Source: Alkalihalobacillus sp. CinArs1 (GTDB lineage: Bacteria > Bacillota > Bacilli > Bacillales > Guptibacillaceae). Taken from it: DNA of 64,000 bases. Below, piece after piece: positions 18,063 through 32,404 of this stretch (positions are counted from its first letter, which is position 1; each line of letters starts with the position of its first letter). Location of the stretch: contig NZ_CANDOB010000001.1 of assembly GCF_947387515.1 (NCBI RefSeq), positions 1,054,001 to 1,118,000 on the forward strand, given 5' to 3'. The notes under the pieces are model-generated. The model was not told the origin of the DNA. It searched no databases and saw only the letters and a program-made list of their open reading frames with translations. The translations under genes and the position numbers were made by a program.

Positions 18063-18093
18063 AAAAAAAGCCACTTGAACTCAAATGGCTTTT
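18063..18093 (-). terminator. Terminator of the glucitol-PTS operon
   Basis: Stem AAAAGCCA/TGGCTTTT with further inner pairs (TTGA/TCAA) and a seven-base T-run on the minus strand, 17 bp after the srlB stop. Confidence 0.75.
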
Positions 18094-18109
18094 AATCTAA
18101 AACGTTTTA

Positions 18110-18460
18110 TTACTTTATAGAAATAACAGTTCCCTCAGTTAACTTAGGGAATACATCTGGTCCTACACATATTGCTCCAGGCAAAACATCTAATTCATCT
18201 TTGAAATAAATTGATATGTGCCCTAACTCATTCAGATTCTGATTTGCTTTTGATCCTACAGCTTGAATCGTATAGGATTGGTCGTCGAACGTAATCGTTC
18301 CTCCTACTCGTAAAGGCTGTTCTTCTAAATCTTGAAACTCATGGATGACAGACATTTCTCTTAGCTCATCAGGAGCTTGAGGACCGAACAATATAACTAT
18401 CTTATCTTCCTTAAAAGTCGGGACTAGCGAACCTATTTCTTTTACTACAGTTGTTGACAT
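18110..18460 (-). CDS. srlB: PTS glucitol/sorbitol-type EIIA
   Basis: A 116-residue soluble phosphocarrier of the Gut family. It accepts phosphate from HPr and passes it to the EIIB domain of SrlE. VILFGPQAPDELREMSVIH is a Gut-EIIA signature, with the His in the family's phosphorylation region. It is the last gene of a five-gene operon: oxidoreductase, gutM, srlA, srlE, srlB. AAAGAGG-type sequence (ATAGGAGG) precedes the ATG. The true sugar is open, because the usual sorbitol-6-phosphate dehydrogenase is not present. Confidence 0.9.
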   Translation of the reverse strand: MSTTVVKEIGSLVPTFKEDKIVILFGPQAPDELREMSVIHEFQDLEEQPLRVGGTITFDDQSYTIQAVGSKANQNLNELGHISIYFKDELDVLPGAICVGPDVFPKLTEGTVISIK

Positions 18461-18486
18461 CTAAAAACCTCCTATTATATGTAGTC

Positions 18487-19497
18487 TTAATACATACCAA
18501 AACTAGCAAAGTAAGCAATGACCACTGCTCCGACTCCAGTAATTAAGCGGCTATATAAAACGGCAGGTACTCCATACTGAATCGTTTCAGGTTCTGCTTC
18601 ACCCAAAGAAAGACCAACAGGAACAAAGTCACAACCCACCTGACCATTAATTGCAAATAAAGCTGGTAATGCAAACTGTGGTGGTATGTTACCTAGCGCA
18701 ATTTGACTTCCTATTAAAACTCCGATGACTTGGGCAATAACTGCCCCCGGTCCCAGAACGGGTGACAAGAAAGGCATCGTACAAATGATAACGATTATAA
18801 CTAATCCCCATAATGAGCTAGCGAGTGGTGCCATCGTATTGGCAATAACATCCCCGATACCGGTGTAATTAATGATTCCGATCAACATACTGACAAATGC
18901 CATGAACGGAATAATATTCTTAATCAACATATCTACCGAATCTCGACCTGCTTGATAAAGTGTACTTGTCACTTTACCAATGGAACGTGAGAACCTCATT
19001 AATAAATTCTGGTTTCCAGCAAGCTGTTCCTCTTTTATTTTTTGATAATCTTCCTGGAACTGTTCTTTATTTAGTGGATTTACAGCAGACTCCTCTTTTT
19101 CTTGGGCACTTGCCGATTCAGATGCACTTTCAGCTAATGCTACTTCTTTTTCAGAGACACCAGATACGAAAATATCTTCTGTAATATGCTTTGCAAGAGG
19201 ACCAGATGGAGAAGAACCGAGAATGTCGACTGTCGGTATCCCCTTCATTGGGTAAAGACCAATTCTAGCTGTTCCGCCACAATCGATCACAACACACATC
19301 ATCTCTTCTTCAGAAACAGAGTTTTTAAAACCATCTACCGCTACTCCTCCTGTTAATTCAGCAATCTTACGTGCTACAGGATGAATGCCTCCACCAGTAA
19401 TAGAAGCTACCTTTGTTTTCTTACCTTGTGGTTCAATATATAGGCCCTTTCCCCAGCCACCTGGACCTTTCGATACAAATACGGCTTTATGTGACAA
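18487..19497 (-). CDS. srlE: PTS glucitol/sorbitol-type EIIBC subunit
   Basis: A 336-residue subunit. The N-terminal domain (about 1-115) is EIIB, with the likely phospho-Cys73 in [13 protein letters not shown] Ser/Glu-rich linker follows (about 120-150), then a membrane domain (about 195-336) with four to five hydrophobic segments, ending [20 protein letters not shown], a Gut-family signature. I chose the TTG start at 19497, eight bases after GGAGG. A longer frame to 19527 overlaps srlA and is not needed. It lies one base after the srlA stop, so the two are tightly coupled. Confidence 0.92.
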
Positions 19498-19498
19498 A

Positions 19499-20041
19499 TC
19501 AGTTTCCTCCTTCCAGCACGCTTGCATTATTACGCTTAGCTAAATACTTCGTAATCATTTCAGTAACGACCCCGCGAATTAGGATGATTACAATACCTAC
19601 CAAGAAATAGCGAACCGCAAGCTCAGACATGGAATAACCCGCTTCTTTAATACCGTTAGCGATGCCCAGGTATACAAATAGTTCACCTGCATTCGCATAT
19701 GGAAAAAGAGAAGTAACTGGGTGAACAAAGGAAACTGCCGAATCATAAAAAGCAGGCTTTTGTTTTTCTGGTAGAAACCTTCCGAATGTATATGCCATTG
19801 GGTTTGTAAGGATAAGAACTGCGAGGACAGGCATAACCGTATAACGGAGTATCATATATTTCGAGGCAAACTGAATAGCTCCGTTGACTCTCTCCTCTCC
19901 AATAAACTTCATTAGTGCATAGGTAAATGTTAATAGCACTACAAGTGTTGGAACGATACCTGTGATCAGACCCATGAAGACTTCACCGCCAGCATTGAAC
20001 ATACCAATAAAATGTTCACCGAACCATTTAATCCATTCCAT
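19499..20041 (-). CDS. srlA: PTS glucitol/sorbitol-type EIIC subunit
   Basis: A 180-residue membrane subunit with four hydrophobic segments. Gut-family landmarks include [18 protein letters not shown] and [22 protein letters not shown], then [16 protein letters not shown]. With SrlE it makes the sugar path through the membrane. It starts 19 bases after gutM with GAAAGGGG upstream of the ATG. In polyol PTS systems of this class the substrate is a hexitol, but related systems take other polyols. Confidence 0.93.
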
Positions 20042-20060
20042 TACCTTGAAATCCCCTTTC

Positions 20061-20480
20061 TTAGACCCTTTCTACGTGTTTCTTAGAGATAGATAAAAGA
20101 GCATTTTCAGCCGCCATTCCCAGTGCAGCATGAAGGGCAGATATTTTTTTCTTTTTAACCTGCTTACCTTGATACACTTGATCTAGTAACTCTCCAACAT
20201 GGATGCCGTGAAAATCCGTTTGATTTTTAAACTTCGAAAACACTGACCTTCCGCTTAGTAAATGACAGTCTCTTACAACATAATCTTGATCGACAACGAT
20301 TAGTGCGATAGCACCTGTTTTAAACGTTCTTCTTTCCATCCCAGAAAACAAGTAGTATCCTTCTTTGTCTTTGTAACCGCTAACAATTTTATCCATGCTT
20401 TTCCTATAGTAACGAATTTGAATGAGAGAAAAGATAAACTGTAAAACGAGAACAGCACATAAAATCAGGGTTAATTTCAT
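20061..20480 (-). CDS. gutM: GutM-type glucitol operon activator
   Basis: A 139-residue protein with an N-terminal hydrophobic segment (about residues 2-20, LTLILCAVLVLQFIFSLI) and a soluble rest ending in a basic region (KKKKISALHAALGMAAENAL). This matches GutM/SrlM, the accessory activator of glucitol operons. The hydrophobic start suggests membrane contact. It has a strong AGGAGG ribosome site and starts 22 bases after the oxidoreductase gene. Its mode of action is not well known in any organism. Confidence 0.85.
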   Translation of the reverse strand: MKLTLILCAVLVLQFIFSLIQIRYYRKSMDKIVSGYKDKEGYYLFSGMERRTFKTGAIALIVVDQDYVVRDCHLLSGRSVFSKFKNQTDFHGIHVGELLDQVYQGKQVKKKKISALHAALGMAAENALLSISKKHVERV

Positions 20481-20502
20481 ATGGACCTCCTATTGAATCT
20501 AA

Positions 20503-21780
20503 TCAAAGGGTTAATTTCTCATAAGCTTTAGAAGGATAAAGACGATCTTGAAGAGAACGGAGCTGCCAGACGGTAGTAGATGGATCAAGCTCTACATCAT
20601 CTTCTGAGATGAATTGACCTTCATGAATATCTTGTTTTGCCACAACATTTCCACTAAATAATCCGATTGGAACGTGTCCGTTTTCTTTCATTTCCTGATG
20701 GGATTCCAGTACTCCTCGAACGGAATAACCACCGATTCCATCTAATCTTTCGCCTTGTTTGATCGACCTTTTAGCAACAGCAACCGTTTCAGATATTGGT
20801 CCTCCAAGTGGTGCAATAGATGCTTCGTTTTGTAAAACTGCCTTTGCAATTGTAATCGGGGTTTCAAGACTCGCAAGGTGGTACGGGCGGTAGAAAGTGT
20901 AGTGTGGTCCCTTCCCAACTTTTAGGTAACGGAGTTCTTCATCTACCGGTTCGAGATCGCTCTTCACGATTACGAAAACACCAGGCGCTAATCCATGTAC
21001 ATATTCGACGACTCCGTAATTTGTAAGAACACCACCGTTTTGAATCAAATCTAATTTATCTGCTACTGTTTCAACAGTGGCATCAACTCCGTTCATCCCA
21101 ACTTTATCAGGAAGGAGTCCTGTTGCATTACTTAGAAGGTTCATTTCAGCCATCGTTTTTGTTCCATCTTGAAAAGCTGCTAACATGTGCGCACTCATCT
21201 GTTTTTGTTTTGCCTCATCTGCACACAGGGTGGGATTTGATTCCGGTATAAAGGGATTATTTTTCCCCTTACCTGCTACTAATACTTCCATGCCCATCGT
21301 TTTAGCAAATTCGTATAACTCTAACGTTGCAGCTGGTTCATCGCCAGCTGATCCTGTGTAAACGAGCCCCGCATTTGAAAAGAGTTCATGCATCACTGAT
21401 CCTATCGTAATATCAACTTCTACATTCAAGAGAACCAAGTGCTTTTTAGCTTTTAAAGACTCAAGTGCAATATTTGCTCCTACTTCTGGTATTCCAGTTG
21501 CATCAACTATGACGTCTACATCATGTGACTGGATGACTTTTCGAAGATCGTCTGATACTACGATCGATTCAACAGCTTTGGCTGTCATCCTCGATCTGTA
21601 ATATTCCGCCGCTCGATTAGCCGCATCAATATTTACGTCACAGATTCCCGTAACTGTCATTCCACTTATTTGTGAGATCTGAGCAATCATTCCGAACCCC
21701 ATTTGGCCTGCTCCAATGACTCCTACTTTTATTGGATTATTTTCCTTTTCTCTTTGCTGAAGCTTCTGATAGATCGACAT
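20503..21780 (-). CDS. COG4091-type NAD(P)-dependent oxidoreductase with C-terminal SAF domain
   Basis: A 425-residue protein. The Rossmann motif GAGQMG lies at residues 23-28, after KVGVI. Middle parts resemble predicted homoserine dehydrogenase-like enzymes. Residues from about 360 form an SAF domain (NVVAKQDIHEGQFISEDDVEL). I recognise this as COG4091, whose substrates are largely unproved. It heads the Gut-PTS operon where a sorbitol-6-phosphate dehydrogenase (SrlD, an SDR) is normally found, so it is inferred to oxidise the phosphorylated polyol or a later product. ATG 21780 has GGGAGG six bases upstream. The longer frame to 21849 crosses the operator and is rejected. Confidence 0.8.
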   Translation of the reverse strand: MSIYQKLQQREKENNPIKVGVIGAGQMGFGMIAQISQISGMTVTGICDVNIDAANRAAEYYRSRMTAKAVESIVVSDDLRKVIQSHDVDVIVDATGIPEVGANIALESLKAKKHLVLLNVEVDITIGSVMHELFSNAGLVYTGSAGDEPAATLELYEFAKTMGMEVLVAGKGKNNPFIPESNPTLCADEAKQKQMSAHMLAAFQDGTKTMAEMNLLSNATGLLPDKVGMNGVDATVETVADKLDLIQNGGVLTNYGVVEYVHGLAPGVFVIVKSDLEPVDEELRYLKVGKGPHYTFYRPYHLASLETPITIAKAVLQNEASIAPLGGPISETVAVAKRSIKQGERLDGIGGYSVRGVLESHQEMKENGHVPIGLFSGNVVAKQDIHEGQFISEDDVELDPSTTVWQLRSLQDRLYPSKAYEKLTL

Positions 21781-21834
21781 AATAAACCTCCCTGTTTTGA
21801 ATAACGCGTGACCATCGCTCCTCCAAGACCCTCG

Positions 21835-21865
21835 TAACATATGACACAACTTTGAACAAATGTTA
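21835..21865 (-). promoter_or_regulatory. Paired operator elements of the glucitol-PTS operon
   Basis: TAACATATGACA at 21835-21846 and GAACAAATGTTA at 21854-21865 begin 19 bp apart. Both have inverted arms of TAACA/TGTTA type. They lie just downstream of the -10 box of the operon. The same pair with the same 19-bp step occurs at two other promoters in this island. Confidence 0.6.
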
Positions 21866-21874
21866 TTAACACTT

Positions 21875-21903
21875 AGTTTAATGCAACTTCAGATGTGTGT
21901 CAA
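21875..21903 (-). promoter_or_regulatory. Sigma-A promoter of the oxidoreductase-gutM-srlAEB operon
   Basis: Minus strand TTGACA (21898-21903), 17-bp spacer, TAAACT (21875-21880). A palindrome AATATTGAATATT (21902-21914) overlaps the -35 box and could be a further protein site. The leader is about 88 bases. Confidence 0.7.
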
Positions 21904-21991
21904 TATTGAATATTCAGATTTTTTTAGAGTTTGTATCTCTAATCATTCTTGGAGAAGGTATATGTTGTTTTCCTAACCGAAACGATTCAAT

Positions 21992-22018
21992 AAAAAAGCC
22001 TGGTGTGTTTGCACCAGT
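21992..22018 (-). terminator. Terminator of the first SorC-type gene
   Basis: Stem CTGGTG/CACCAG with a 6-base loop, then a six-base T-run on the minus strand. It separates the regulator gene from the glucitol-PTS operon. Confidence 0.7.
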
Positions 22019-22043
22019 CAGGAGGTAATACGATATGAAGTTT

Positions 22044-22979
22044 TTACGTTAACTGAAGGGCAGTAGCTTCATCAGTGATTAATACATTCACTAAGCCGCC
22101 TTTAAGTGCAGCTCGAATAGCACTGACTTTTTCGTGGCCAGAAGCAACGCCTATCACAATGGGTATGTTCTTTAATTTCTCTAAATCAAGCGACATTACA
22201 CGATCATTCCATGAAGAGTTTGTAGCACGGCCTTCTATGTCAATAAAGTTATAGCAAATGTCCCCTACTACCTCTTTATTACAGAAGAGCTCCTCCCTTT
22301 CTTCATTTAGGTAGGACTTCACCATCGTCGAATGCTCTGGTGTTCCTCCAATCCCTACAAGAGCGATGTGGGATTGCTCAGCCATTGAAAACACTTTCTC
22401 AATCGATGGTTGTCGCATCATAATATCTTTTGCTTCCTTACTATCAACAATCACTGGCACGTGAAGGAGCTCATAGTTGCACCTAAGAACTTCTCCAAAG
22501 CGAGCAACTAGATAATTGGAGTGAATATCGACTCGTTCATTTCCAACACCACCAACCAAAGGAACACATGTGATCGAAGGAAATTCTTGTGAAGTAGAAA
22601 GCACCTTCGACACTTCATTTATCGTCGTTCCAGAGGATATACCAATCACCTGGTCTTCTTTTAAAATTCTCAATAAATATTGGCTAGCAGCTTTCCCTAA
22701 TCTACTTTTAGATGACTCATATTCTACGCTATCTATACAGACTACTTCCCGTAATCCATACTTCCTTTCGATTTTACTCTCTAATTCTCTATACTTTAAG
22801 TTGTCATCGTCATGAATAATGATTTCTACAATACCCTTTTCTCTAGCCTTCGTAAGATATTTTGATATAAGCGAACGGCTAACACCGATTTTCTGTGCAA
22901 TTTGTGACTGTGTTGCACGTTCCTCGTAGTACATATGTGCAATTTTCACCAACAACCTTCTATCTTCTAAGATAGCCAT
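22044..22979 (-). CDS. SorC/DeoR-family transcriptional regulator (copy 1)
   Basis: A 311-residue regulator. The N-terminal helix-turn-helix is TQSQIAQKIGVSRSLISKYL (about residues 21-40). The C-terminal region from about 60 is the sugar-phosphate sensing domain of the SorC family, with GISSGTTINEV and VPLVGGVGNE marking the ligand loop. ATG 22979 has AAAGGAG upstream; the frame to 23024 has no ribosome site. It has its own terminator, so it is separate from the PTS operon downstream. A cre-like site lies in its leader. It is one of two SorC proteins here, likely acting on the shared operators. Confidence 0.88.
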   Translation of the reverse strand: MAILEDRRLLVKIAHMYYEERATQSQIAQKIGVSRSLISKYLTKAREKGIVEIIIHDDDNLKYRELESKIERKYGLREVVCIDSVEYESSKSRLGKAASQYLLRILKEDQVIGISSGTTINEVSKVLSTSQEFPSITCVPLVGGVGNERVDIHSNYLVARFGEVLRCNYELLHVPVIVDSKEAKDIMMRQPSIEKVFSMAEQSHIALVGIGGTPEHSTMVKSYLNEEREELFCNKEVVGDICYNFIDIEGRATNSSWNDRVMSLDLEKLKNIPIVIGVASGHEKVSAIRAALKGGLVNVLITDEATALQLT

Positions 22980-23006
22980 ATAAAAATCTCCTTTACCATC
23001 CTTCAA

Positions 23007-23021
23007 ATTAAAACGCTTACA
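23007..23021 (-). promoter_or_regulatory. cre-like site upstream of sorC copy 1
   Basis: ATTAAAACGCTTACA departs from WTGNAANCGNWNNCW at one fixed base. It lies 28-42 bp before the ATG, a position for CcpA repression. Confidence 0.35.
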
Positions 23022-23087
23022 CATTTTTCAAGTCATATACTAATCTATATACTATCATATCTTTTTTTTCTACACGATAAAGGTAAT

Positions 23088-23122
23088 AAAAAAGGATTAT
23101 ACCTCTTAAAGAGATATAATCC
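23088..23122 (-). terminator. Terminator of sorC copy 2 and the aco-like operon
   Basis: Stem GGATTATA/TATAATCC with an inner CTCTT/AAGAG pairing, then a six-base T-run on the minus strand, a few bases after the stop codon. Confidence 0.8.
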
Positions 23123-23128
23123 AGCACG

Positions 23129-24070
23129 TTATGTTAAAAGAGATGAGGCGGTTTCTTCGTCAATAATCAACACATCAAGAAATCGTCCATTCAATGCCCC
23201 TAGGATACTTTCTGCTTTATGTTTTCCTTCTACAATACCAATGACTTCTTTTATTCCACGTAAGTCCTCTAAAGGAATACCTATTACTTTTTCATTGATG
23301 GAATCTTTAATAGGGGCACCATTTCCATCAAAAAAACGGTACCCAATATCACCGACAGCTCCCATTGCATCAAGGTGTTCAAGATCATGGTCCTTTAAAT
23401 AACCAATCTTCTCAAGAGTTGAATTCTGATGTGGATTCCCGATTCCAATCAAAGCCCTGTCTACTTGCCGTCCTTCCTCAAGGACAGCTTTTATATCTGT
23501 CATCTCTAATAATCGTGCTTTCAATTCTTCTGTTTCTACGATTGCAGGTGCATACAAATAGGAACACTTTCCATTTAATTTCTTCGCAAGTTCGTATGCT
23601 AGTTGATTGGCATGGATTTCTACATATTTCCTTCCCATCCCGCCTTCAAGAGGAACGATTATGATACCCTCATGCCTTTTGAATGGAAACTCGTCTACGA
23701 AATAGGAGAGGGTTGTCCCCCATGATATTCCAAGCTTCTCATGATCACCTAGATTTCTCGATAGATAGTATGCACCAGCTCTCGCAACAGCCCGTTTGCT
23801 TCGTTCATCTGTATACCCATGTGTTGGTACAACCACAACATCTTTCAACTTAAATTTATCTTCCAACTGTTGTTCTAAATCAACTGTGTGTGCATTTTCA
23901 TCTTTAATATAGATTTCCACAATCCCAGCATCTTTTGCTTTTTGAAGGAGCTTCGAAACGATTGGCCTCGATACCCCCATCTTTTTAGCTACCTGACTCT
24001 GAGTCCATCCTTCGAAATAGTAAAGGTTTGCGACTTTTACAAGCTTTCTACGTTCTTCCCAATCCAACAT
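23129..24070 (-). CDS. SorC/DeoR-family transcriptional regulator (copy 2)
   Basis: A 313-residue paralogue of the regulator at 22044-22979. The helix-turn-helix is TQSQVAKKMGVSRPIVSKLL, and the sensor domain has GISWGTTLSYFV and VPLEGGMGRKY. The two recognition helices share GVSR and are similar but not identical. It starts 51 bases after the E3 gene, so it may be the last gene of that operon. An extended -10 element (TGCTATAAT) just upstream may give it a second promoter. Its ribosome site, GGCGGGG, is moderate. Effector sugar phosphate is unknown. Confidence 0.87.
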   Translation of the reverse strand: MLDWEERRKLVKVANLYYFEGWTQSQVAKKMGVSRPIVSKLLQKAKDAGIVEIYIKDENAHTVDLEQQLEDKFKLKDVVVVPTHGYTDERSKRAVARAGAYYLSRNLGDHEKLGISWGTTLSYFVDEFPFKRHEGIIIVPLEGGMGRKYVEIHANQLAYELAKKLNGKCSYLYAPAIVETEELKARLLEMTDIKAVLEEGRQVDRALIGIGNPHQNSTLEKIGYLKDHDLEHLDAMGAVGDIGYRFFDGNGAPIKDSINEKVIGIPLEDLRGIKEVIGIVEGKHKAESILGALNGRFLDVLIIDEETASSLLT

Positions 24071-24103
24071 CGTATCCCCGCCTATCCGTCAATTGCTTGT
24101 TCT

Positions 24104-24112: not shown

Positions 24113-24121
24113 ATCTAAAAT

Positions 24122-25528
24122 CTAAACGAGAACACCCTGGTTTTTCAGTTTTTGAAATAAGGAGGAAGCATTTTCTTGAAATGCCTCTGAAACGGTTGGA
24201 TGTGGATGAATCATTTTCGCTGCTTCTTCTATCGTTCCTTCTAATGACATAAACGCAGAAGCTTCAGATATTAACTCTGTAACGTGTGCCCCTACAAGCG
24301 TTACACCCAAGATCTCACCATACGTTTCATCACAAATTATTTTAGAGAAGCCGACAGCTTCACCAGCAGACAGAGCTTTTCCATTAGCATGTAGCTCAAA
24401 TCGCTCCGTTCGATAAGAGATTCCGGCATTCACTACTTCTTCTTCTGTCATTCCGACACTGGCAACTTCAGGAAGTGTGTAAATACAACGCGGAATTACT
24501 TTATCATCAAACTGATCATCTACATTCATAGCATTGTTAGCCGCTACAATCCCTTCTGCGCTCGCAACATGAGCAAGTTGATACCCACCGATCACGTCAC
24601 CAATCGCATAAATTCCCTTATTAGTAGTTTCCATCTTTTCATTCACATGAATAAATGGACCATTTTTTTCTAATTCGAGTTTTTCAACCGCTGACGTGTT
24701 GGGTTTTCTTCCAACACTAACAAGTAAGGATTGTGCTTCTAGTGAGTGGGTCTCTCCGTTTCCATCCATCACACTTAAAATGCTATAATTGTTCTCTTTC
24801 GTGACTTTCGTGACTTTCTTGACAGTAGAACCTGTCAATATCGATACTCCTTTATTCTCTAGCTCTTTGGTTAACGTCTTGGAAGCATCAGCATCTTCAT
24901 TAGGTATTATCCGATCTGCCATCTCCACAACGGTAACTTCTGTACCCAGACTCGCAAAGATACAGGCAAACTCCACTCCGATGACACCTCCACCGATGAT
25001 TGCGATTGAAGAAGGGATGTTTTTCATATCAAAAATAGTGTCGCTTGTATCATAGTCTACTTGTTCTAGTCCTTGAATGGATGGGACGACTGGTCTTGAA
25101 CCTGTAGCAACGATGATCTTCTCTGACTCGATAGTATGTACATCGTCTTTTGTCTTTATTGTGATCGAATGGTTTTTTTCAATCGTACCATATCCATAAA
25201 AAACGTCGATTTTTCCTTGCTTCAATAGATAAGAAATACCGTTACGAAGCCGGTGAATGACTTCATCCTTTCTCCTTTTCATTTTATCGATGGAAAGCTT
25301 TATTTCTCCTGTTTCAATTCCCCAATCTCTTGCTTTTTTGATCATTTCAATAATCTCAGCTTGTTTTAAATACGTTTTTGACGGGATACACCCCCAGTTT
25401 AAACATGTGCCTCCAAGATACTTCGCTTCAATCAACGCAACCCGCTTTCCCTGTTCCGCTGCATGTAAAGCCGCTACATATCCCCCTGGTCCGCCTCCAA
25501 TTACAGTAATATCATATGGTGCAGTCAA
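24122..25528 (-). CDS. acoL: Dihydrolipoyl dehydrogenase (E3)
   Basis: A 468-residue flavoprotein that reoxidises the lipoyl groups of the complex with NAD+. FAD-binding GGGPGGYVAA is at residues 11-20. The redox pair is Cys42 and Cys47 (GGTCLNWGCIPS). The NAD motif is GGGVIGVEFA and the C-terminal active site HPHPTVSEAF. I chose TTG 25528, six bases after GGAGGAG. The frame to 25570 overlaps the E2 gene and lacks a ribosome site. It is the fourth gene of the E1alpha-E1beta-E2-E3 set. The symbol follows acetoin dehydrogenase operons and is tentative. Confidence 0.92.
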   Translation of the reverse strand: MTAPYDITVIGGGPGGYVAALHAAEQGKRVALIEAKYLGGTCLNWGCIPSKTYLKQAEIIEMIKKARDWGIETGEIKLSIDKMKRRKDEVIHRLRNGISYLLKQGKIDVFYGYGTIEKNHSITIKTKDDVHTIESEKIIVATGSRPVVPSIQGLEQVDYDTSDTIFDMKNIPSSIAIIGGGVIGVEFACIFASLGTEVTVVEMADRIIPNEDADASKTLTKELENKGVSILTGSTVKKVTKVTKENNYSILSVMDGNGETHSLEAQSLLVSVGRKPNTSAVEKLELEKNGPFIHVNEKMETTNKGIYAIGDVIGGYQLAHVASAEGIVAANNAMNVDDQFDDKVIPRCIYTLPEVASVGMTEEEVVNAGISYRTERFELHANGKALSAGEAVGFSKIICDETYGEILGVTLVGAHVTELISEASAFMSLEGTIEEAAKMIHPHPTVSEAFQENASSLFQKLKNQGVLV

Positions 25529-25541
25529 TTTGCTCTCCTCC

Positions 25542-26885
25542 TCACGCAAGTAGCTCATACGGATTTTCAAGGATTTGCTTTAATTCAGTTAAAAAGGCTG
25601 CAGCTGGTGCACCATCAATAGCTCTGTGATCAAATGATAGACTTACCGCCATAGTCGGTCTTACTTCGATTTCTTGATCAACGACCACTGGTTTTTCTTG
25701 AATTCTCCCAGTTCCAAGAATCGCTGTCTGGGGTAAATTAATGATTGGTGTGAATGCATCGACAGCGTACATTCCTAGGTTACTTACGGTAAAGGTAGCC
25801 CCTTTCAACTGATCTTCCTGAAGTTTTTGATTACGTGCATTCTTCGCAAGTCTCTTCGCGTGATCATTAATTTCTCTTAACCCTTTACTAGGAACATCTT
25901 GTATAACTGGCACAATGAGTCCTTCATCTAAAGAGACCGCCAAACCTACGTTGATACTGTTATTTAATACAATCTCATCATCATTTAAGGATGCATTCAT
26001 AGCTGGGTGTCTAGATAGTGCCTCCCCTGTAGCCTTAATAATAATATCTGTGTAAGAAAGACGGTTTCCTGTATGAGATTCCACGACTTTCATGAGGTTT
26101 TTCCGAAGTTCCTGTACCTTTTTCATATCGATTTCGCTAGTTAATGTAACATGAGGTGCTGTATTCACACTTTCCTGCATCCGATCAGCGATGACTTTCC
26201 TCATTCCTGAAAGTTTTCTCTTCTGACTAGTTTGAATAGAAGGGTCCACCCTTGAGACTCTATCAATGGATTTTGCGACATCGTTTTTCATAACCTTACC
26301 GTTGACGCCTGAACCATTAATACTCTCGAGCGATACCTGATGTGCTTTTGATACTTTCTTTGCGAGCGGTGTTGCTCTAGAATCATTTCTCTGAATTAAA
26401 ACTTGATTAACGTCTTTAACATGAACCCTCCCTTTAGGACCACTTCCAGAAATTTCGTTCAGCAGAATATTATTTGATCTCGCGACTCGTCTCGCAGCCG
26501 GGGTAGCTCTAACATCCTCTGAAGGTTCAACTTTTGATTGTTCTTCAATTCTCACCGAGGTTTCCTCAACAGCCGATTCATTAAGCTCCTTCTCTTCATT
26601 GATCTCATTACCAGATATCCCCGGAGAGGTGTCAGGCACTACTTCATCCTGCTGCCCTACATATGCGATAATTTGGTTAACTGGAATTTCATCGTCGATA
26701 TCATAGTATTTCTTTAATAAGACACCATCATCATATGCTTCTACTTCTATGTTGATCTTGTCTGTCATAATTTCAAACAATGGTTCACCAGTTTCAACAG
26801 AGTCGCCTTCTTCCTTAAACCATTGAAGAAGGGTTCCTGTTTCCATCGTACTACTGAGCTTAGGCATAAACACTTCATTTGCCAC
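25542..26885 (-). CDS. acoC: Dihydrolipoamide acyltransferase (E2) with two E3-binding domains
   Basis: A 447-residue core enzyme of a 2-oxo-acid/acetoin dehydrogenase complex. Residues 1-80 are a lipoyl domain with lipoylated Lys43 (IMTDKINIEVEA). Two peripheral subunit-binding domains follow, at about 125-160 (RATPAARRVARSN) and 169-204 (SRATPLAKKVSKAH), where one is usual. The catalytic domain (about 220-447) ends with DHRAIDG at 419-425. The start is a GTG seven bases after AAAGGAGG. The double binding domain may change how many E1 or E3 units bind. Confidence 0.9.
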   Translation of the reverse strand: MANEVFMPKLSSTMETGTLLQWFKEEGDSVETGEPLFEIMTDKINIEVEAYDDGVLLKKYYDIDDEIPVNQIIAYVGQQDEVVPDTSPGISGNEINEEKELNESAVEETSVRIEEQSKVEPSEDVRATPAARRVARSNNILLNEISGSGPKGRVHVKDVNQVLIQRNDSRATPLAKKVSKAHQVSLESINGSGVNGKVMKNDVAKSIDRVSRVDPSIQTSQKRKLSGMRKVIADRMQESVNTAPHVTLTSEIDMKKVQELRKNLMKVVESHTGNRLSYTDIIIKATGEALSRHPAMNASLNDDEIVLNNSINVGLAVSLDEGLIVPVIQDVPSKGLREINDHAKRLAKNARNQKLQEDQLKGATFTVSNLGMYAVDAFTPIINLPQTAILGTGRIQEKPVVVDQEIEVRPTMAVSLSFDHRAIDGAPAAAFLTELKQILENPYELLA

Positions 26886-26901
26886 TTAAATACCTCCTTT
26901 C

Positions 26902-27885
26902 CTATTTGAACCGAATCGTTTCTTTCACTGCTTCTACAATATCATCGACCTGAGGTACAGTTGCCTTCTCAAGCTTCGGATTGTAAGGAATAGGTACCGG
27001 CAACCCACCAAGACGTTTGATTGGAGAATCTAAGAAATCGAATGCTTCACTCTCTGCAATCATACTTGCAATTTCTCCGCCATAACCTCCACGCTTCACT
27101 GCTTCATGAACTACTACAACTCGCCCTGTCTTTTTGACTGATTCAACGATAGTTTCTTCATCAAGAGGCACTAAAGTACGAGGGTCGATCACCTCAACTT
27201 CGATCCCTTCTTTTACAAGTTTCTCAGCAGCTTCAAGTGCTCGATGCACCATAATAGCAGTTGCAACGATCGTTACGTCGCCTCCACTCCGTTTAATATC
27301 TGCCTTCCCAATTGGAATGGTATAAGGTTCTTCAGGAACTTCACACTTTGTTTTATAGAGGAGCTTATGTTCATAGAAAATTACGGGATTATCATCGTCT
27401 ATAGCCGCTTTTAATAGGCCCTTCGCATCATATGCAGTTGAAGGTTGAACAACCTTTAATCCTGGGATATGTGCGACCCATGCTTCAAGACTCTGCGAAT
27501 GTTGAGCAGCAGCGCCAGTACCAGAACCAGCGGGAGTTCTTAGCACCATAGGAACACTGCCTTTCCCACCATACATATAGCGAAGCTTCGCAGCTTGATT
27601 CGTTAACTGGTCCATGGCAATCGTAATAAAATCAGAGAATTGAAGCTCGAGTATAGGTCTCATACCTGTTAATGCCGCTCCTACTGCACCTCCAGTTATT
27701 GCTGATTCTGAAATTGGGGTATTGCGAATTCGCTCTGGTCCGAATTCTTCAATCATTCCTCTCGTTACTCCAAATGCGCCTCCATATACGCCGATATCTT
27801 CACCTAATAAAAAGACATCGTTATTCTCTCTCATTTCTTGACTCATTGCTTCCCTTACAGCTTCTAGGTAAGTCAATTCGCGCAT
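26902..27885 (-). CDS. acoB: Thiamine-diphosphate dehydrogenase E1 beta subunit
   Basis: A 327-residue transketolase-like beta chain. It has the typical [16 protein letters not shown] start, the [16 protein letters not shown] loop, and [19 protein letters not shown]. With E1 alpha it forms the ThDP enzyme. The first ATG (27891) touches the GGGGGAG ribosome site, so the second ATG at 27885, six bases downstream, is preferred. It starts 14 bases after the E1 alpha stop. Sequence pattern is closest to acetoin dehydrogenase AcoB and to single-operon pyruvate dehydrogenases; it cannot be split between these by eye. Confidence 0.9.
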
Positions 27886-27899
27886 GTTCATCTCCCCCT

Positions 27900-28883
27900 T
27901 TATGCGTATACGTCTTCCAATAATGTGTCTATGGACGGCTCTTTACTATTCTCAGCAAATCTCACCGCATCTTCAATCTCCTGTTTAGCCTCTTGTTGTA
28001 GCTCTTCAGCAAGTTCTTCAGTTAAAACACGTTCTTCAATCAATAATTCTTTGAACCGTTTGATTCCATCTTTACTTCTCCACTCTTGCTCTTCTTCTCT
28101 CGTCCTGTATTTCTTTGCATCACTTTTTGAGTGGCCCTTCCAACGATACGTTTTCACTTCAATTAACGCTGGACCATTTCCATCACGAGCATCTTCTACA
28201 GCGTCGTATACAGTATTAATAATTTCGACCAAGTCATTGCCGTCAACCACTTCCCCTTTGATTCCATAACTCCCAGCACGGTCCGCAATATCTGGGATAT
28301 TGATCATATCTTTCGCAGCACCTGACATTCCATATTGGTTGTTTTCACAAATGAATACAACAGGAAGTCCCCAAATGGAAGCTAAGTTAAGTGACTCATG
28401 AAAACTTCCTTCGTTACTTGCACCGTCTCCAAAGAAACAAAGCACAACATAACCTTCGTTCTTCATTTTAGAAGTTAATGCCGCTCCTACTGCGAGAGGT
28501 ATACCTCCACCTACGATGCCATTTGCTCCTAAATTCCCTTTTTCGAGGTCTGCGATATGCATAGACCCACCTTTTCCTTTGCAATATCCTGTAACACGTC
28601 CAAACAATTCAGCCATCATTTTATCTGTGCGTGCCCCTTTAGCAATACAATGTCCATGCCCTCTATGTGTACTTGTGATCTTATCTATATCCTGAAGAGC
28701 TGCAATTGCTCCAGCAGCTGAGGCTTCCTGCCCAACACACAAATGCGTTGTTCCATGAATTAATCCTTTAGCGAAAAATTGATCGACCTTTTCATCAAAA
28801 TAACGGATCAGCCACATTTGCTTGTAGAGGTCTTTGAGCTTATCAGTTGTGATATGGGACGGTAGATTAAACGTTTTCTCCAT
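27900..28883 (-). CDS. acoA: Thiamine-diphosphate dehydrogenase E1 alpha subunit (AcoA-like)
   Basis: A 327-residue alpha chain. The ThDP/Mg motif runs from GDG at 152-154 to NN at 181-182. [13 protein letters not shown] and [21 protein letters not shown] resemble AcoA of acetoin dehydrogenase more than PdhA. The enzyme would split acetoin or a 2-oxo acid and pass the acyl group to E2. It is first in the operon, with AAAGGGAGG before the ATG. No acoR (sigma-54 activator) or acuABC is near, and a sigma-A promoter with SorC-like operators precedes it, so control and perhaps substrate differ from the classic acetoin operon. Confidence 0.88.
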
Positions 28884-28899
28884 TTTTTATTTCCTCCCT

Positions 28900-28930
28900 T
28901 TACATTTGTTCTTATAAGTAACATTTGTTA
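28900..28930 (-). promoter_or_regulatory. Paired operator elements of the aco-like operon
   Basis: TTACATTTGTTC (28900-28911) and TAACATTTGTTA (28919-28930) begin 19 bp apart. The second is a perfect TAACA/TGTTA inverted repeat over the expected start site. The first lies in the early leader and is identical to an element at 32343-32354. Confidence 0.7.
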
Positions 28931-28932
28931 AC

Positions 28933-28961
28933 ATCATACTTTTTTTAGAATTTTCCGTCAA
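28933..28961 (-). promoter_or_regulatory. Sigma-A promoter of the aco-like operon
   Basis: Minus strand TTGACG (28956-28961), 17-bp spacer, TATGAT (28933-28938). No sigma-54 GG-GC pair is present in this leader. Confidence 0.75.
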
Positions 28962-29008
28962 GTGGTAACAACTGATTATTCTAAGTTTTTGTAAGCAGAT
29001 TAGGTAAT

Positions 29009-29037
29009 AAAAAAATCCTGCCAGTTAAGGCAGGATT
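29009..29037 (-). terminator. Terminator of the zinc-ribbon small gene
   Basis: 9-bp stem AATCCTGCC/GGCAGGATT, 6-base loop, T-run of seven on the minus strand. Confidence 0.85.
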
Positions 29038-29044
29038 CTTTAGT

Positions 29045-29377
29045 CTATTTCTTATTATAATTACTGAACACATCTCTTGTATCTTTTAGATAGCGATATA
29101 CAGAATAAGGTTTTTTTACAATTCGAACTGGTATTGAAGAAATAAATTTACTAAAGTCTTCTTTATATTCTTTCGTCAACCGTTGAGGCTTCCGAGCAAT
29201 CTTTTCATATAACTCTCTTGAAAACTCCTTCATTAAATCTACTTTAAACTCAAGTTCGTGACCACAGTTCGTGCACTTAACCTTCGATATTTCTCCATTT
29301 ATATAAGTGAAATGGTGCTCCTCGTGCTCCTGGCAATGTAAACAAAAGAGTTCAAAGTCCATCTCATTTCTCTTCAA
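29045..29377 (-). CDS. Small zinc-ribbon protein (bh-type hypothetical)
   Basis: A 110-residue protein with a zinc ribbon at the N-terminus: CLHC near residues 12-15 and CTNC near 35-38, separated by HEEHHFTYINGE. The rest is basic and helical. This pattern occurs in small Bacillus proteins with no known role. The start is TTG, six bases after GGGGAGG; an internal ATG at codon 6 lacks spacing. It has its own extended -10 promoter and terminator, so it is independent of the two flanking sugar operons even though it sits between them. Confidence 0.65.
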   Translation of the reverse strand: MKRNEMDFELFCLHCQEHEEHHFTYINGEISKVKCTNCGHELEFKVDLMKEFSRELYEKIARKPQRLTKEYKEDFSKFISSIPVRIVKKPYSVYRYLKDTRDVFSNYNKK

Positions 29378-29487
29378 TGTTATCCTCCCCTTACACCATT
29401 GTTTTCTTCACCTTAGTTACAGAGAGAGTCATACTATCCCGAAATCAAAATATGACATCGGTTACAATGTATAGCAATAGTTCATAA

Positions 29488-29496
29488 ATTATACCA
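29488..29496 (-). promoter_or_regulatory. Extended -10 promoter of the zinc-ribbon gene
   Basis: TGGTATAAT on the minus strand is a full extended -10 box; the -35 region is poor. It lies about 110 bp before the TTG start. Confidence 0.4.
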
Positions 29497-29503
29497 TATT
29501 CTC

Positions 29504-29540
29504 ACAAAAGAAACAGGGAGGCTTTTTAGCATCCCTGTTT
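29504..29540 (-). terminator. Terminator of the galactitol-PTS/aldolase operon
   Basis: Stem AAACAGGGA/TCCCTGTTT with a loop of about 12 bases and T-rich sequence on the minus strand. Confidence 0.7.
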
Positions 29541-29548
29541 TTTAATGA

Positions 29549-30202
29549 CTATTTTTGTCCGTATTCATATTGATAAAATTCAAAAGCTGATTCAACTTGA
29601 TCCTCTGTTAATAATACTGGTTTTCCGATCGCCATAGCCAAGTGAATTGTTTTTGCGACATCTTCTACAACCACTGCTGACTTAAAAGCGGCTTCTGGCG
29701 AACTTCCGACAGTAAACACTCCATGATTTTTCATGAGTATGGCAGTTGAGCGGCCTATATATTGCAATATTGCCTCTCCAATAGCTTTTCCACCAACAGA
29801 TACATATGGCCCAACTGGTACGGGTCCCCCGAAGTAGTTCGCTACAGATGTAATGGCAGGTGGTATTTCCAAGCCAAGTGCAGCAAAGCTAGTTGCATAA
29901 TTTGAATGTGTATGAACAACGCCGTGTATGTCTAACTTATGTTTGTATATTTCTAAATGTGTTTCTGTATCTACAGAAGGCGCACAAGTTCCTTCAAGAA
30001 TATGTCCACACTCCCTCATGACAAGCATATCTTCTGATCTCATCTCTTCATATGGCATTCCGCTTGGTTTCATGATGATCAAACCTGTTGAAGGATCCCT
30101 TCCACTTACATTGCCGCTCGTCAACTTCACTAGCCCCTCAGTTGGTAAACGCCGATTTAGTGCACAAACCCTTTCTTTTAAAGCTTCAAGCACAGATCTC
30201 AC
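29549..30202 (-). CDS. Class II aldolase/epimerase, AraD-like
   Basis: A 217-residue zinc enzyme of the class II aldolase/adducin family. The phosphate-binding loop is SGNVSGRD, followed by KPSG. Metal ligands by position are His97 and His99 (VVHTHS) and His160 (KNHG). Asp78 (PSVDTETH) stands where AraD, the L-ribulose-5-phosphate 4-epimerase, has Asp and fuculose aldolase has Glu. So a 4-epimerase or a related retro-aldol reaction on a ketose phosphate is likely. It starts three bases after the gatC stop and closes the galactitol-type PTS operon. The substrate is not known. Confidence 0.85.
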   Translation of the reverse strand: MRSVLEALKERVCALNRRLPTEGLVKLTSGNVSGRDPSTGLIIMKPSGMPYEEMRSEDMLVMRECGHILEGTCAPSVDTETHLEIYKHKLDIHGVVHTHSNYATSFAALGLEIPPAITSVANYFGGPVPVGPYVSVGGKAIGEAILQYIGRSTAILMKNHGVFTVGSSPEAAFKSAVVVEDVAKTIHLAMAIGKPVLLTEDQVESAFEFYQYEYGQK

Positions 30203-30205
30203 CTC

Positions 30206-31558
30206 TTATGCACTATATTCTTCCTTCCTTTCAGCCTCAAGCTTAGCTGTCTTTTTCTTTTGATAAAAGGCAACTACTAGAAATATTAAGCCTATGCCTA
30301 GTAGGCCAACATAGCCGAGTTTGCTAGCAAAAACCATTATAGCGGTCGTAGGTACAGCTCCGTCTACTAGAGAAGAAATTTGATTTGTACCTTGAGGAAA
30401 TTCAAATCCAGCATTCATAGCAGCGGTTGTAAAAATTGGAGAGATGTACGTTGCGATCAACAACCCTAATCCTATAGCAACACCACCTGTAACAACTGTC
30501 CTGAATACATTCCCTCTAAAAACAGGTACCATTAAACATATAATGAACGGAATCGTTACTAAGTCTGCAAATGGTAATACTCTATTCCCAGGAAGAAATG
30601 CTGCAATACCTAACACGATAGGAATGAGGAGAAGAGTTGAGGCAATAACTGCAGGTTGGCCTACTGCAAGCGCTGAATCCATTCCAATATAAAGATCTCG
30701 ATTTGGAAAGCGTTTTTTGACTAGGTCACCTGCAGCTTCTGAAATCGGCATCAATCCTTCCATTAAAATAGCAGTAACGCGAGGTAATAAGAGCATAACA
30801 GCAGCCATTTGTACTCCAAGAAGAAGAACTTCTTGAACATTCCACCCCGCAAGTACGCCTATAAATGCACCTAGAATAAGTCCAAGTACCATTGGCTCAC
30901 CGAAAACACCCAATCGCTTTTGGATCGTATCTGGATCTGCTTTTATATTTCGTACTCCAGGTATAGCATCAAATAGTTTATTCATAGGGAGAGCAATCAG
31001 ATAATATGGAGTAGATGTTCCATGAGGGAAAGAGATATTTGGATAGCCATAATAATCCTGAACGTGCTTTGCTGTTAAATCTGCAAGTACAAGGATAATA
31101 ATCGTATGAACGAATGCTGTAACGATCCCCATGGCTAAACTTCCTGTAAGAATGGATACGAGAGCACCTGTGAACGCCACATGCCAGAGGTTCCATAAAT
31201 CTACGTTCAATGTTTTGGTAAGGCCAAAGAACAACATCACCATGTTTACAGCAAGTCCAATCGGTATAGCGAGCGCTCCTACAGTAGACCCAAATGAAAT
31301 GGCAGATGTTGCTGGCCACCCTACATCAATGATATTAAGGTCGACTCCAAGATTATTAACCATGTCTTTTGCTGCAGGTCCAAGACTATTCACTAGTAAA
31401 CCAATGACTAGATTGATACCCACAAATCCTATTCCTACGATCAACCCTGAGCGAAACGCAGTACTGGGGGAAGCCTTTACAAGTAAACCGAATAAAAAAA
31501 TAATCACAGGCAGCATGACTGAGGGACCAAGTCCTACAATGTATTCAAGAATCGCCAT
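30206..31558 (-). CDS. gatC: PTS galactitol-type EIIC
   Basis: A 450-residue membrane subunit. It matches GatC along its length: LGPSVMLPVIIFLFGL, the SLGPAAKDMVNNLGVDLNI loop, VDLWNLWHVAFTGAL and PGNRVLPFADLVTIPF. About 11 hydrophobic segments are visible. It ends in a Lys/Glu-rich cytoplasmic tail. Gat-type systems import galactitol and in other bacteria also pentitols such as arabitol. The neighbour is an AraD-like enzyme and not a tagatose-bisphosphate aldolase, so a pentitol or tetritol is as likely as galactitol here. Confidence 0.9.
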   Translation of the reverse strand: MAILEYIVGLGPSVMLPVIIFLFGLLVKASPSTAFRSGLIVGIGFVGINLVIGLLVNSLGPAAKDMVNNLGVDLNIIDVGWPATSAISFGSTVGALAIPIGLAVNMVMLFFGLTKTLNVDLWNLWHVAFTGALVSILTGSLAMGIVTAFVHTIIILVLADLTAKHVQDYYGYPNISFPHGTSTPYYLIALPMNKLFDAIPGVRNIKADPDTIQKRLGVFGEPMVLGLILGAFIGVLAGWNVQEVLLLGVQMAAVMLLLPRVTAILMEGLMPISEAAGDLVKKRFPNRDLYIGMDSALAVGQPAVIASTLLLIPIVLGIAAFLPGNRVLPFADLVTIPFIICLMVPVFRGNVFRTVVTGGVAIGLGLLIATYISPIFTTAAMNAGFEFPQGTNQISSLVDGAVPTTAIMVFASKLGYVGLLGIGLIFLVVAFYQKKKTAKLEAERKEEYSA

Positions 31559-31580
31559 ATGAACCTCCCTTTATCCTGTA

Positions 31581-31862
31581 CTATTCTTTCAGTTCTTCTT
31601 CAATTTCTGCAAATACCTTGTCAGCACCTATGCCAGTAAGTATAGGTACAGCATTGATGGTCTTTGTAGTGACCGAGTTTGGAACATGAGTTGTAGAAAC
31701 GATTAAATCAAAATCTTTATAACTGTTTGCAATCGCGTTAACATTAGATTGAGTCGTCTGGGCATTGATTTCCTTCTCTTTTAGAAATTTTGAAAGCTTG
31801 GACATAATGATTGTCGAAGTCGCTGCTCCTGTGCCACAAATGACCGCTATTTTTTTCGCCAT
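31581..31862 (-). CDS. gatB: PTS galactitol-type EIIB
   Basis: A 93-residue soluble domain that passes phosphate to the sugar. The phosphocysteine is Cys9 in the loop VICGTGAATST. Length and fold order match GatB. It lies between gatA (three bases upstream) and gatC (22 bases downstream), each with a good ribosome site (GGGAGG before gatC). All three Gat subunits are therefore separate proteins in this operon. Confidence 0.9.
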   Translation of the reverse strand: MAKKIAVICGTGAATSTIIMSKLSKFLKEKEINAQTTQSNVNAIANSYKDFDLIVSTTHVPNSVTTKTINAVPILTGIGADKVFAEIEEELKE

Positions 31863-31865
31863 TAC

Positions 31866-32330
31866 TTAATCACTCCCAATTGGTATTATTGTTAAACTAC
31901 TTTTCACTTCATCAAGACTATTACATTCCTTAAGCCTAGATAATAATTCTTCACTTTGTATCAGTTCCATTAATGATTGAAGAAGTTTTACTTGTTCTTT
32001 CGGATCTTTAATGGCAAGCATGAAAACGATCTCAACATGAATACGCTCAGAGGAATTTCCCATCATTTGAAATACAACAGGTTCTTGCAGAACTCCAATA
32101 CTTATCCCTGGTTTATGAATGTGATGTGGATCAGTGTGCGGTATAGCTACACCGATTGAAGCAGGTAAACCAGTCGGGTAAGTTTCCTCTCTCTCAAGAA
32201 CGGACCTTAGAAAACTATCTTTTGCGTAACCGCTTTCAATTAATGAATCAGATAAACGACGTAACACCTTTTCAACAGAAAACTCGCTTAACCGTTTAAA
32301 GTCTACAATGTAATCACTGACTTTTCCCAT
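31866..32330 (-). CDS. gatA: PTS galactitol-type EIIA
   Basis: A 154-residue EIIA of the fructose/mannitol (EIIA-2) fold. The phosphorylated residue is His65 in VAIPHTDPHHI. EIVFMLAIKDPKEQVKLLQ is a common family stretch. It is the first gene of the operon gatA-gatB-gatC-aldolase. AAAGGAGGG precedes the ATG. Its promoter carries the same paired operators as the aco-like operon, at the same distance from the start site. Confidence 0.9.
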   Translation of the reverse strand: MGKVSDYIVDFKRLSEFSVEKVLRRLSDSLIESGYAKDSFLRSVLEREETYPTGLPASIGVAIPHTDPHHIHKPGISIGVLQEPVVFQMMGNSSERIHVEIVFMLAIKDPKEQVKLLQSLMELIQSEELLSRLKECNSLDEVKSSLTIIPIGSD

Positions 32331-32342
32331 ATCAACCCTCCT

Positions 32343-32373
32343 TTACATTTGTTCAATGTACGAACATTTATAA
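32343..32373 (-). promoter_or_regulatory. Paired operator elements of the galactitol-PTS operon
   Basis: TTACATTTGTTC (32343-32354) and GAACATTTATAA (32362-32373) begin 19 bp apart. The first is identical to the element at 28900-28911. Their place relative to the -10 box is the same as at the aco-like promoter. Confidence 0.7.
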
Positions 32374-32375
32374 AC

Positions 32376-32404
32376 ATCTTAAACCTTCAAGAATAGATTT
32401 TCAA
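32376..32404 (-). promoter_or_regulatory. Sigma-A promoter of the galactitol-PTS operon
   Basis: Minus strand TTGAAA (32399-32404), 17-bp spacer, TAAGAT (32376-32381). Confidence 0.7.

Follow-up and report, generated by a model that had tools for sequence, protein, structure and literature searches.

The closest described relatives of the system reported here are phosphotransferase system (PTS) operons of the glucitol (srl/gut) type, acetoin dehydrogenase (AcoABCL) and heterotetrameric pyruvate dehydrogenase (PDH), regulators of the SorC/DeoR type, and the reductoisomerase DRL (DXR-II) of Brucella. Sorbitol utilisation operons include a sorbitol-6-phosphate dehydrogenase, acetoin dehydrogenase is typically accompanied by an AcoR-type sigma-54 activator, and SorC/DeoR proteins recognise GAACA-type inverted repeats and respond to phosphosugar effectors. 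Three operons with counterparts of these four systems were found at positions 18,063 to 32,404 of a 64,000-nucleotide stretch from Alkalihalobacillus sp. CinArs1 (contig NZ_CANDOB010000001.1, positions 1,054,001 to 1,118,000; hereafter the window). One of them has IIC, IIBC, IIA and GutM in common with the srl/gut operon, but DRL lies where the sorbitol-6-phosphate dehydrogenase would be. Another carries the same E1 alpha-beta, E2 and E3 gene set as AcoABCL and PDH, yet its group is distinguished by a basic active-site loop residue, probable SorC control and a tie to DRL. Likewise, the window regulators share the PF04198 domain with B. subtilis DeoR, LsrR and CggR, whereas the window operators are pairs 19 bp apart and the window proteins missed the DeoR and LsrR equivalog cut-offs. 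Finally, the window DRL displays the domains and residues of Brucella DRL, but its gene belongs to a PTS operon whose operators recur at the genes of an acyl-CoA-forming complex; the genome contains a DXR-I match as well (DXR, 1-deoxy-D-xylulose 5-phosphate reductoisomerase), and the window DRL is proposed here to run in reverse.

Operon 1 comprised DRL, gutM and the glucitol-type PTS, operon 2 the E1α, E1β, E2, E3 and SorC2 genes, followed by a hairpin (23122-23094) and SorC1, and operon 3 a gat-type PTS with a class II aldolase. Gene identities, operator pairs, pair conservation and gene co-occurrence were all observed directly. From them we infer reactions, substrates, binding and effectors, and conclude that the three operons probably form a catabolic regulon, under SorC control, that serves 2-C-methyl-D-erythritol or a closely related 2-C-methyltetritol. 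In a sequence-only reading that preceded this study, DXR-II was not recognised and the pathway was therefore not named.

The DRL reductoisomerase and its operon

Operon 1 contained the following features.

20503..21780, minus strand: DXR-II (DRL) reductoisomerase, 425 amino acids from the ATG at 21780 (Pfam DRL_cat 2.5e-60; Brucella DRL 3upl, E 1e-91)
20061..20480, minus strand: GutM-like protein (PF06923)
19499..20041, minus strand: glucitol-type PTS IIC, SrlA-like (PF03608)
18487..19527, minus strand: glucitol-type PTS IIBC, SrlE-like (family profile matches)
18110..18460, minus strand: glucitol-type PTS IIA, SrlB-like (PF03829)
18066..18093, minus strand: terminator-like hairpin after the DRL/srl operon

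From the identities and residues compared, the protein encoded at 20503-21780 is a DXR-II/DRL, with a predicted interconversion of 1-deoxy-D-xylulose 5-phosphate (DXP) and 2-C-methyl-D-erythritol 4-phosphate (MEP). It displayed NAD-binding, DRL catalytic and SAF domains, and its closest solved relative, matched over the full length, was Brucella abortus DRL (PDB 3upl/3upy). A longer TTG-initiated open reading frame (ORF) would overlap operator O1 (see below). In DXR-II, K191, K193 and T229 have been described as fosmidomycin/substrate anchors and R320 as a dimer residue, T229 and R320 being the residues diverged in the DLO families (PMC3847144). Equivalents of K191, K193, T229, R320 and Y322 were conserved in the window DRL, and 79 of the 84 DRLs aligned, that of the window among them, kept K191, K193, T229 and R320 together. 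The five DRLs that did not keep all four (L120, L122 and L199-L201) had no PTS or E1 in their stretches.

The identity of this enzyme raises the possibility of an isoprenoid or signalling supply, in which the PTS would salvage methylerythritol to MEP, or DRL would make extra MEP, the E1-E3 genes being unrelated. Such a role agrees with the complementation of a DXR-defective mutant by 11 DXR-IIs and with the view that genomes devoid of DXR-I depend on DXR-II (both PMC3847144). Yet the host genome displayed a DXR-I match above cut-off, which would make DXR-II redundant for isoprenoids, and Finegoldia and Anaerococcus are listed as having DXR-II with no other MEP-pathway and no mevalonate-pathway genes (PMC3847144). 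Moreover, supply would presumably be countered by a complex that consumes DXP and shares these operators. We regard this explanation as improbable.

The E1-E2-E3 complex

The enzyme genes of operon 2 were as follows.

27900..28883, minus strand: E1 alpha subunit, loop GHSKSD with Lys253 (PF00676)
26902..27891, minus strand: E1 beta subunit (PF02779/PF02780)
25542..26885 (mechanical ORF bounds), minus strand: E2 acyltransferase with lipoyl and E3-binding domains (PF00198, PF02817, PF00364)
24122..25570 (mechanical ORF bounds), minus strand: E3 dihydrolipoyl dehydrogenase (TIGR01350 above cut-off)

The window E1 alpha missed the PDH equivalog cut-offs, closely for TIGR03182 (388.3 versus 393.85) and also for TIGR03181 (265.3 versus 411.35). 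The E1 beta passed the PDH-beta subfamily model NF006667 (403.9 versus 321), and the E2 missed the cut-off of the acetoin-E2 model NF011457 (87.6 bits versus 307). Family searches of the window locus found no AcoR, the regulators there being the two SorC proteins. A hallmark of the group is the E1α loop GHS[K/R]SD, with a basic residue in 58/58 E1α of the group and in all 12 plasmid E1α (see below); Lys was recorded in at most 2 of 18 other E1α. This basic residue comes after a serine aligned with the first Ser of human E1α GHSMSD, the regulatory phosphorylation site, and it may bind phosphate.

Co-occurrence of DRL and E1

Among 398 Bacilli-class genomes, DRL was found in 38, the E1α clade in 38 and both in 35 (Fisher 3e-43, uncorrected for kinship; the counted genomes are related, so that Fisher values overstate independence). 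Clade members had at least 63% identity, plus one 72% fragment in G414, this cut being set at a gap reaching down to 55%. A contig scan with one single protein as query gave just two loci. The 69 DRL loci retained (without L017, which duplicates L015, and with L019 and L021 counted under L018 and L020) displayed glucitol PTS IIC or IIBC in 60 cases, E1α and E1β in 46, E2 in 45, SorC in 55 and all these in 43. Fourteen further DRL loci, several of them cut by contig ends, added four with srl and one with E1α and E1β. The link between DRL and E1 holds without proximity: in G056 and G452, a DRL/srl/SorC1 set and an E1/SorC2/znr110 set (znr110 is a small protein described below) were separated by some 235-240 kb, and both had an operator pair of their own. 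DRL occurred without the E1 clade in G278, G317 and G393; the loci of G278 and G393 are L120 and L122, in which K193 and R320 are missing.

Plasmid records with a DRL match numbered 86, from which 20 loci were fetched, partly for diversity (16 at 38% identity or more and four at 35% or less). In alphaproteobacterial plasmid loci of the first category, E1α and E1β adjoined DRL in 11 out of 12, including that of Sinorhizobium fredii NGR234, a strain listed in the published table of the DXR-II family. Glucitol PTS genes occurred in five of these 12 stretches (L234, L236, L237, L238 and L242), and an ABC sugar transporter and a sugar kinase were annotated in L235, L240 and L247, with no PTS found in the stretch. 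Moreover, lipA adjoined in two of the alphaproteobacterial loci, and thiC, thiS and thiazole synthase genes in one. Of the four Firmicute loci in the plasmid collection, the Priestia one includes the E1-E3 genes. This version of the module (L233) was borne by a mobilizable Priestia aryabhattai plasmid, together with an FGGY kinase and a major facilitator superfamily (MFS) transporter.

The four homologues at 35% identity or less lacked K193 and T229 and had no E1 or PTS in their stretches. Three of the four occurred in rfb-type sugar clusters (L243, L244 and L245, inside rfb/CDP-sugar clusters); these neighbours raise the possibility that some members of the DRL family produce branched sugars destined for polysaccharides.

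These distributions bear on a more ordinary explanation, namely a polyol regulon in which sorbitol-/galactitol-type PTS and a pyruvate or acetoin dehydrogenase would be co-controlled to burn a fermentation product or pyruvate. The PTS parts do match glucitol and galactitol families and the E1/E2/E3 parts match PDH-type models. In addition, the Listeria version was called a sorbitol operon by authors who reported decreased expression of a SAF-domain protein, gutM, srlB, srlE and regulator in a ccpC mutant (PMC11176438). However, neither a sorbitol-6-phosphate nor a galactitol-phosphate dehydrogenase turned up when the genes of the three operons were compared with protein families. DRL stands in that place, and 35 of the 38 DRL genomes had the E1 clade. 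Genomes G056, G312, G341, G258 and G153 hold a separate additional E1 at 50-52% identity and, on plasmids, DRL and E1 persist in 11/12 loci while the transporter varies. An ordinary polyol regulon thus appears unlikely.

Operator pairs and promoters

Each operon was preceded by a promoter and an operator pair.

21875..21903, minus strand: sigma-A-type promoter of the DRL/srl operon, TTGACA-17-TAAACT
21835..21865, minus strand: operator pair O1, TAACATATGACA-N7-GAACAAATGTTA on the plus strand, mostly SorC1-type half-sites, -10 box 9 nt upstream
28933..28961, minus strand: sigma-A-type promoter of the E1-E2-E3 operon, TTGACG-17-TATGAT
28900..28930, minus strand: operator pair O2, TTACATTTGTTC-N7-TAACATTTGTTA, composite of SorC2-type and SorC1-type elements, -10 box 2 nt upstream
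32376..32404, minus strand: sigma-A-type promoter of the gat-type operon, TTGAAA-17-TAAGAT
32343..32373, minus strand: operator pair O3, TTACATTTGTTC-N7-GAACATTTATAA, SorC2-type, -10 box 2 nt upstream

Each pair consists of two 12-bp palindromes of 5-2-5 organization whose starts are 19 bp apart (21835/21854, 28900/28919 and 32343/32362). The element TTACATTTGTTC is the same at 28900-28911 and 32343-32354, and at both places its last coordinate differs by 22 from that of the nearer edge of the -10 hexamer (28933-28911 and 32376-32354). The sequence-only reading had described the three promoters with their 17-bp spacers, the three pairs following them at a 19-bp step, and the identical element at an equal distance from two -10 boxes; all these coordinates proved right. 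Promoter-like matches were no commoner in the region than in shuffles (31 versus a mean of 35.9), so that the three promoters are recognised by position, not by score.

At the level of the whole genome (4,026,031 bases), the 31-bp pair pattern had three zero-mismatch places, all at these operons, and the occurrence at many unrelated promoters that the sequence-only reading had envisaged as a contrary outcome was not found. Allowing one or two mismatches yielded two further places (C3:108161 and C1:442488), and a reversed control pattern gave two forward and two reverse matches. No convincing further regulon member emerged from this search, since C3:108161 falls on the 3' end of an ORF and weak matches were about as numerous with the reversed control. 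In the window, the three pairs scored 31.8, 28.7 and 26.7 bits and the next best pair at 19 bp 15.2, the three high values being due to construction as the matrix was made from the same three pairs. A chance origin of the pairs was ruled out by the genome pattern search, the window matrix scores and the spacing peak in relatives (see below). The 15.2-bit pair (29453-29483, upstream of znr110) is not claimed as a fourth operator because it overlaps a match resembling a CcpA-binding cre site. Such cre-like matches were observed inside the cluster at 20371-20385, 29453-29467 and 32020-32034 (window total 6 versus 0.85 expected), which suggests carbon catabolite control.

With a score threshold of our own choice, the matrix from the window's six elements was also run on loci of other genomes (97 loci, 739 upstream regions). 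It found 81 element pairs at a distance of 19 bp and at most five at every other distance up to 60, whereas five shuffles together gave three pairs at 19 bp. Relatives with the same genes, whose lack of the pair had been imagined beforehand as evidence to the contrary, often displayed it: 35/61 upstream of E1 alpha (31/44 in the class and relatives sets, 4/17 in genomes flagged as the same phylum), 21/42 upstream of gutM, the first srl gene in many genomes, and 10/83 upstream of DRL, which is often internal to an operon. Further pairs were recorded upstream of SorC2 (10/47), SorC1 (6/23) and gatA (6/34), rarely upstream of srlB (2/67), znr110 (2/46) and gatB (1/22), and never upstream of srlA, srlE, gatC, E1b, E2, E3 and aldII (0/314 together in these loci); all denominators keep low-identity matches, e.g. 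the E1a match of L131. Pairs were also present in Listeria, Ligilactobacillus salivarius, Priestia and Enterococcus loci (best scores 24.2, 24.0, 26.5 and 28.2).

Two SorC regulators

The regulator genes lie at the end of operon 2.

23129..24070, minus strand: SorC2, sugar-binding transcriptional regulator, downstream of E3 (PF04198; helix-turn-helix segment SRPIVSKLL)
23094..23122, minus strand: terminator-like hairpin between SorC2 and SorC1
22044..23024, minus strand: SorC1, sugar-binding transcriptional regulator (PF04198; helix-turn-helix segment SRSLISKYL), then a hairpin at 22017-22000

Both proteins have a helix-turn-helix and the PF04198 sugar-binding domain, and their differing helix-turn-helix segments presumably represent the recognition helices. 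Half-sites were compared with the regulators present, counted at 45% identity or more, nine operators being from genomes without such a regulator. In the five genomes with both SorC types, TAA half-sites made up 19/28 in the DRL/srl operators, and 16/16 were TTA or GAA in the E1 operators. The 27 SorC2-only genomes displayed TTA/GAA on both sides (39/48 on the srl side, 79/88 on the E1 side), and the nine SorC1-only genomes, with few operators, TAA in 7/16 and 4/8, respectively. In the window, O1 was mostly SorC1-like, O3 SorC2-like and O2 mixed. Operator type thus seems mostly to track the regulator present rather than the operon, which supports the view that the two SorC paralogues would prefer slightly different half-sites. 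Since half-sites vary with the SorC present, on either operon and with one exception (see below), the SorC proteins are the likely binders of the operator pairs. In the sequence-only reading, one or both local SorC proteins were proposed to control the three operons as one system. The shared regulon is supported; its description as one regulon is better replaced by two overlapping specificities, because SorC2-only genomes carry SorC2-type operators on both modules and the window has two SorC proteins.

The gat-type operon and znr110

The features of operon 3 were as follows.

31866..32330, minus strand: PTS EIIA-2, GatA-like (PF00359)
31581..31862, minus strand: PTS IIB, GatB-like (PF02302)
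30206..31558, minus strand: galactitol-type PTS IIC (PF03611; TIGR00827 below cut-off)
29549..30202, minus strand: class II aldolase / ribulose-phosphate epimerase family protein (PF00596; NF005123 above cut-off)
29045..29377, minus strand: znr110, a 110-amino-acid four-Cys zinc-ribbon-like protein, recurrent partner of the module (no Pfam match)

A set composed of gat PTS, E1-E2-E3, SorC2 and znr110 was observed in a genome without DRL match (L186 in G218), hinting that the substrate of the gat PTS may reach the E1 complex without a reductoisomerase. An alignment of 47 znr110 rows displayed two CxxC pairs and basic KPxR/KPyR motifs. Of the Bacilli-class genomes, 32/398 had znr110, 25 of these together with DRL and 26 with the E1 clade, and it recurred with DRL/E1 loci both within the class and elsewhere in the phylum. 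It was assigned to no known family by Pfam (no match), PDB (best E 0.39) or NCBIfam (no cut-off reached).

A proposed catabolic pathway

DXP is an acyloin, like acetoin, whose thiamine-dependent cleavage is a known reaction, and its natural precursors are hydroxyethyl-thiamine-diphosphate and glyceraldehyde 3-phosphate. In the proposed pathway, the PTS would import 2-C-methyl-D-erythritol as MEP, DRL working in reverse would convert MEP to DXP, and E1-E2-E3 would cleave DXP on thiamine diphosphate, freeing glyceraldehyde 3-phosphate and oxidising the C2 fragment to acetyl-CoA. A pyruvate/acetoin-type E1 would thereby split DXP, from the opposite side, into its two biosynthetic pieces, and this cleavage would pull the reverse DRL step. 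The sugar alcohol would thus be burned by a reversal of the opening reactions of isoprenoid synthesis, a route not recognised before. The gat-type PTS operon could bring a second substrate into DXP, e.g. a 1-deoxyketose or 1-deoxypentitol. SorC1 and SorC2, on the 19-bp-spaced pairs just past the -10 boxes, would keep transcription off until released by a phosphorylated intermediate (MEP, DXP). According to PMC3424233, 1-deoxyxylulose is formed when purified PDH acts on pyruvate and glyceraldehyde, and mutant PDH E1 gives rise to DXP in vivo; the same report cites studies in which PDH and acetoin dehydrogenase produced 1-deoxyketoses. With slightly less confidence than for the regulon itself, we expect a new activity, DXP dehydrogenase (DXP + CoA + NAD+ -> acetyl-CoA + glyceraldehyde 3-phosphate + NADH), with its own phosphate-binding loop, SorC proteins sensing MEP/DXP, and znr110 as a new small zinc-ribbon family of the system.

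The same logic could apply to another substrate, such as 2-C-methyl-threitol, a hydroxymethyl-tetritol such as apiitol, or a 1-deoxypentitol. Alcohol dehydrogenase and short-chain dehydrogenase/reductase (SDR) genes beside gat/E1 in G056, SDR genes similarly placed in G117 and the gat-E1-SorC-znr110 set of G218, found without DRL, indeed suggest multiple entry substrates. Yet an acetyl-CoA-type complex would suit a methyl ketose, and a hydroxymethyl tetritol would give xylulose 5-phosphate, needing no such complex. Another substrate is therefore doubtful, although marginally less so than the polyol and isoprenoid explanations.

Several observations weigh against the proposed methyltetritol catabolism. 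Its weak point is the reverse DXR reaction: in Z. mobilis, the ΔG of DXR was estimated below -29 kJ/mol in the biosynthetic direction (PMC10134818), and with the forward reaction so strongly favourable, the reverse one would need high MEP, high NADP+/NADPH and a strong pull. E1α and E1β were missing within about 10 kb in 23/69 DRL loci; some of these genomes have the E1 clade elsewhere, and G317 has none. Loci L133, L145, L196, L197 and L198 keep the DXR-II residues without glucitol PTS and E1. On plasmids, the Phyllobacterium locus (L250) has DRL without E1, those of Listeria (L231) and Enterococcus raffinosus (L241) have DRL, PTS and SorC with no E1 in the stretch, and in that of L. salivarius (L232, 13913-16572) the DRL/PTS/regulator genes are followed by those for fructose-6-phosphate aldolase (fsa) and transketolase (tkt), the stretch being devoid of E1-E2-E3. 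Conversely, the E1 clade occurred without DRL in G212, G218 and G298; G298 displays an AcoR-like activator, an MFS transporter and SDRs instead, and G212 a similar layout, judged by ORF sizes alone. The group's E1s were not strictly monophyletic, since 3/18 others fell inside (supports 0.77 and 0.66). The gat operator of L021, from a genome with two SorC proteins, has TAA half-sites (2/4) where the SorC2 type was expected. Finally, the window DRL has Asn at the usual His250, a residue stated to be present in all but four DXR-IIs (PMC3847144); as these exceptions are published and 20 other aligned rows differ too, His250 is not defining for DXR-II.

As to the fructose-6-phosphate aldolase of L. 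salivarius, it was rejected as a general cleavage step because it was annotated in only 1/17 annotated plasmid loci.

Implications

The cited DXR-II papers treat this protein as an isoprenoid enzyme. How DXR-II could evolve beside DXR-I was asked in a 2013 survey (PMC3847144), and a review of February 2026 states that DXR-II has no defining distribution pattern apart from over-representation among certain pathogens (PMC13001223). A catabolic role would give this distribution a pattern, that of gene neighbours, and a test. As for the substrate, plants accumulate methylerythritol and its glucosides (PMC11192765). Among the matches listed in a search of open-access titles and abstracts, with most subscription journals and bioRxiv outside its scope, no description of methylerythritol breakdown was found.

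If true, the proposed regulon would explain the scattered occurrence of a 'redundant' DXR-II in bacteria with DXR-I or without the MEP pathway. It would add methylerythritol and its glucosides from plants as a new bacterial carbon source; 2-methyltetrols are also isoprene-aerosol products. Likewise, the pyruvate dehydrogenase superfamily would gain a new reaction, and the records naming these genes 'glucitol/sorbitol PTS', 'homoserine dehydrogenase' and 'pyruvate dehydrogenase' would need correction.

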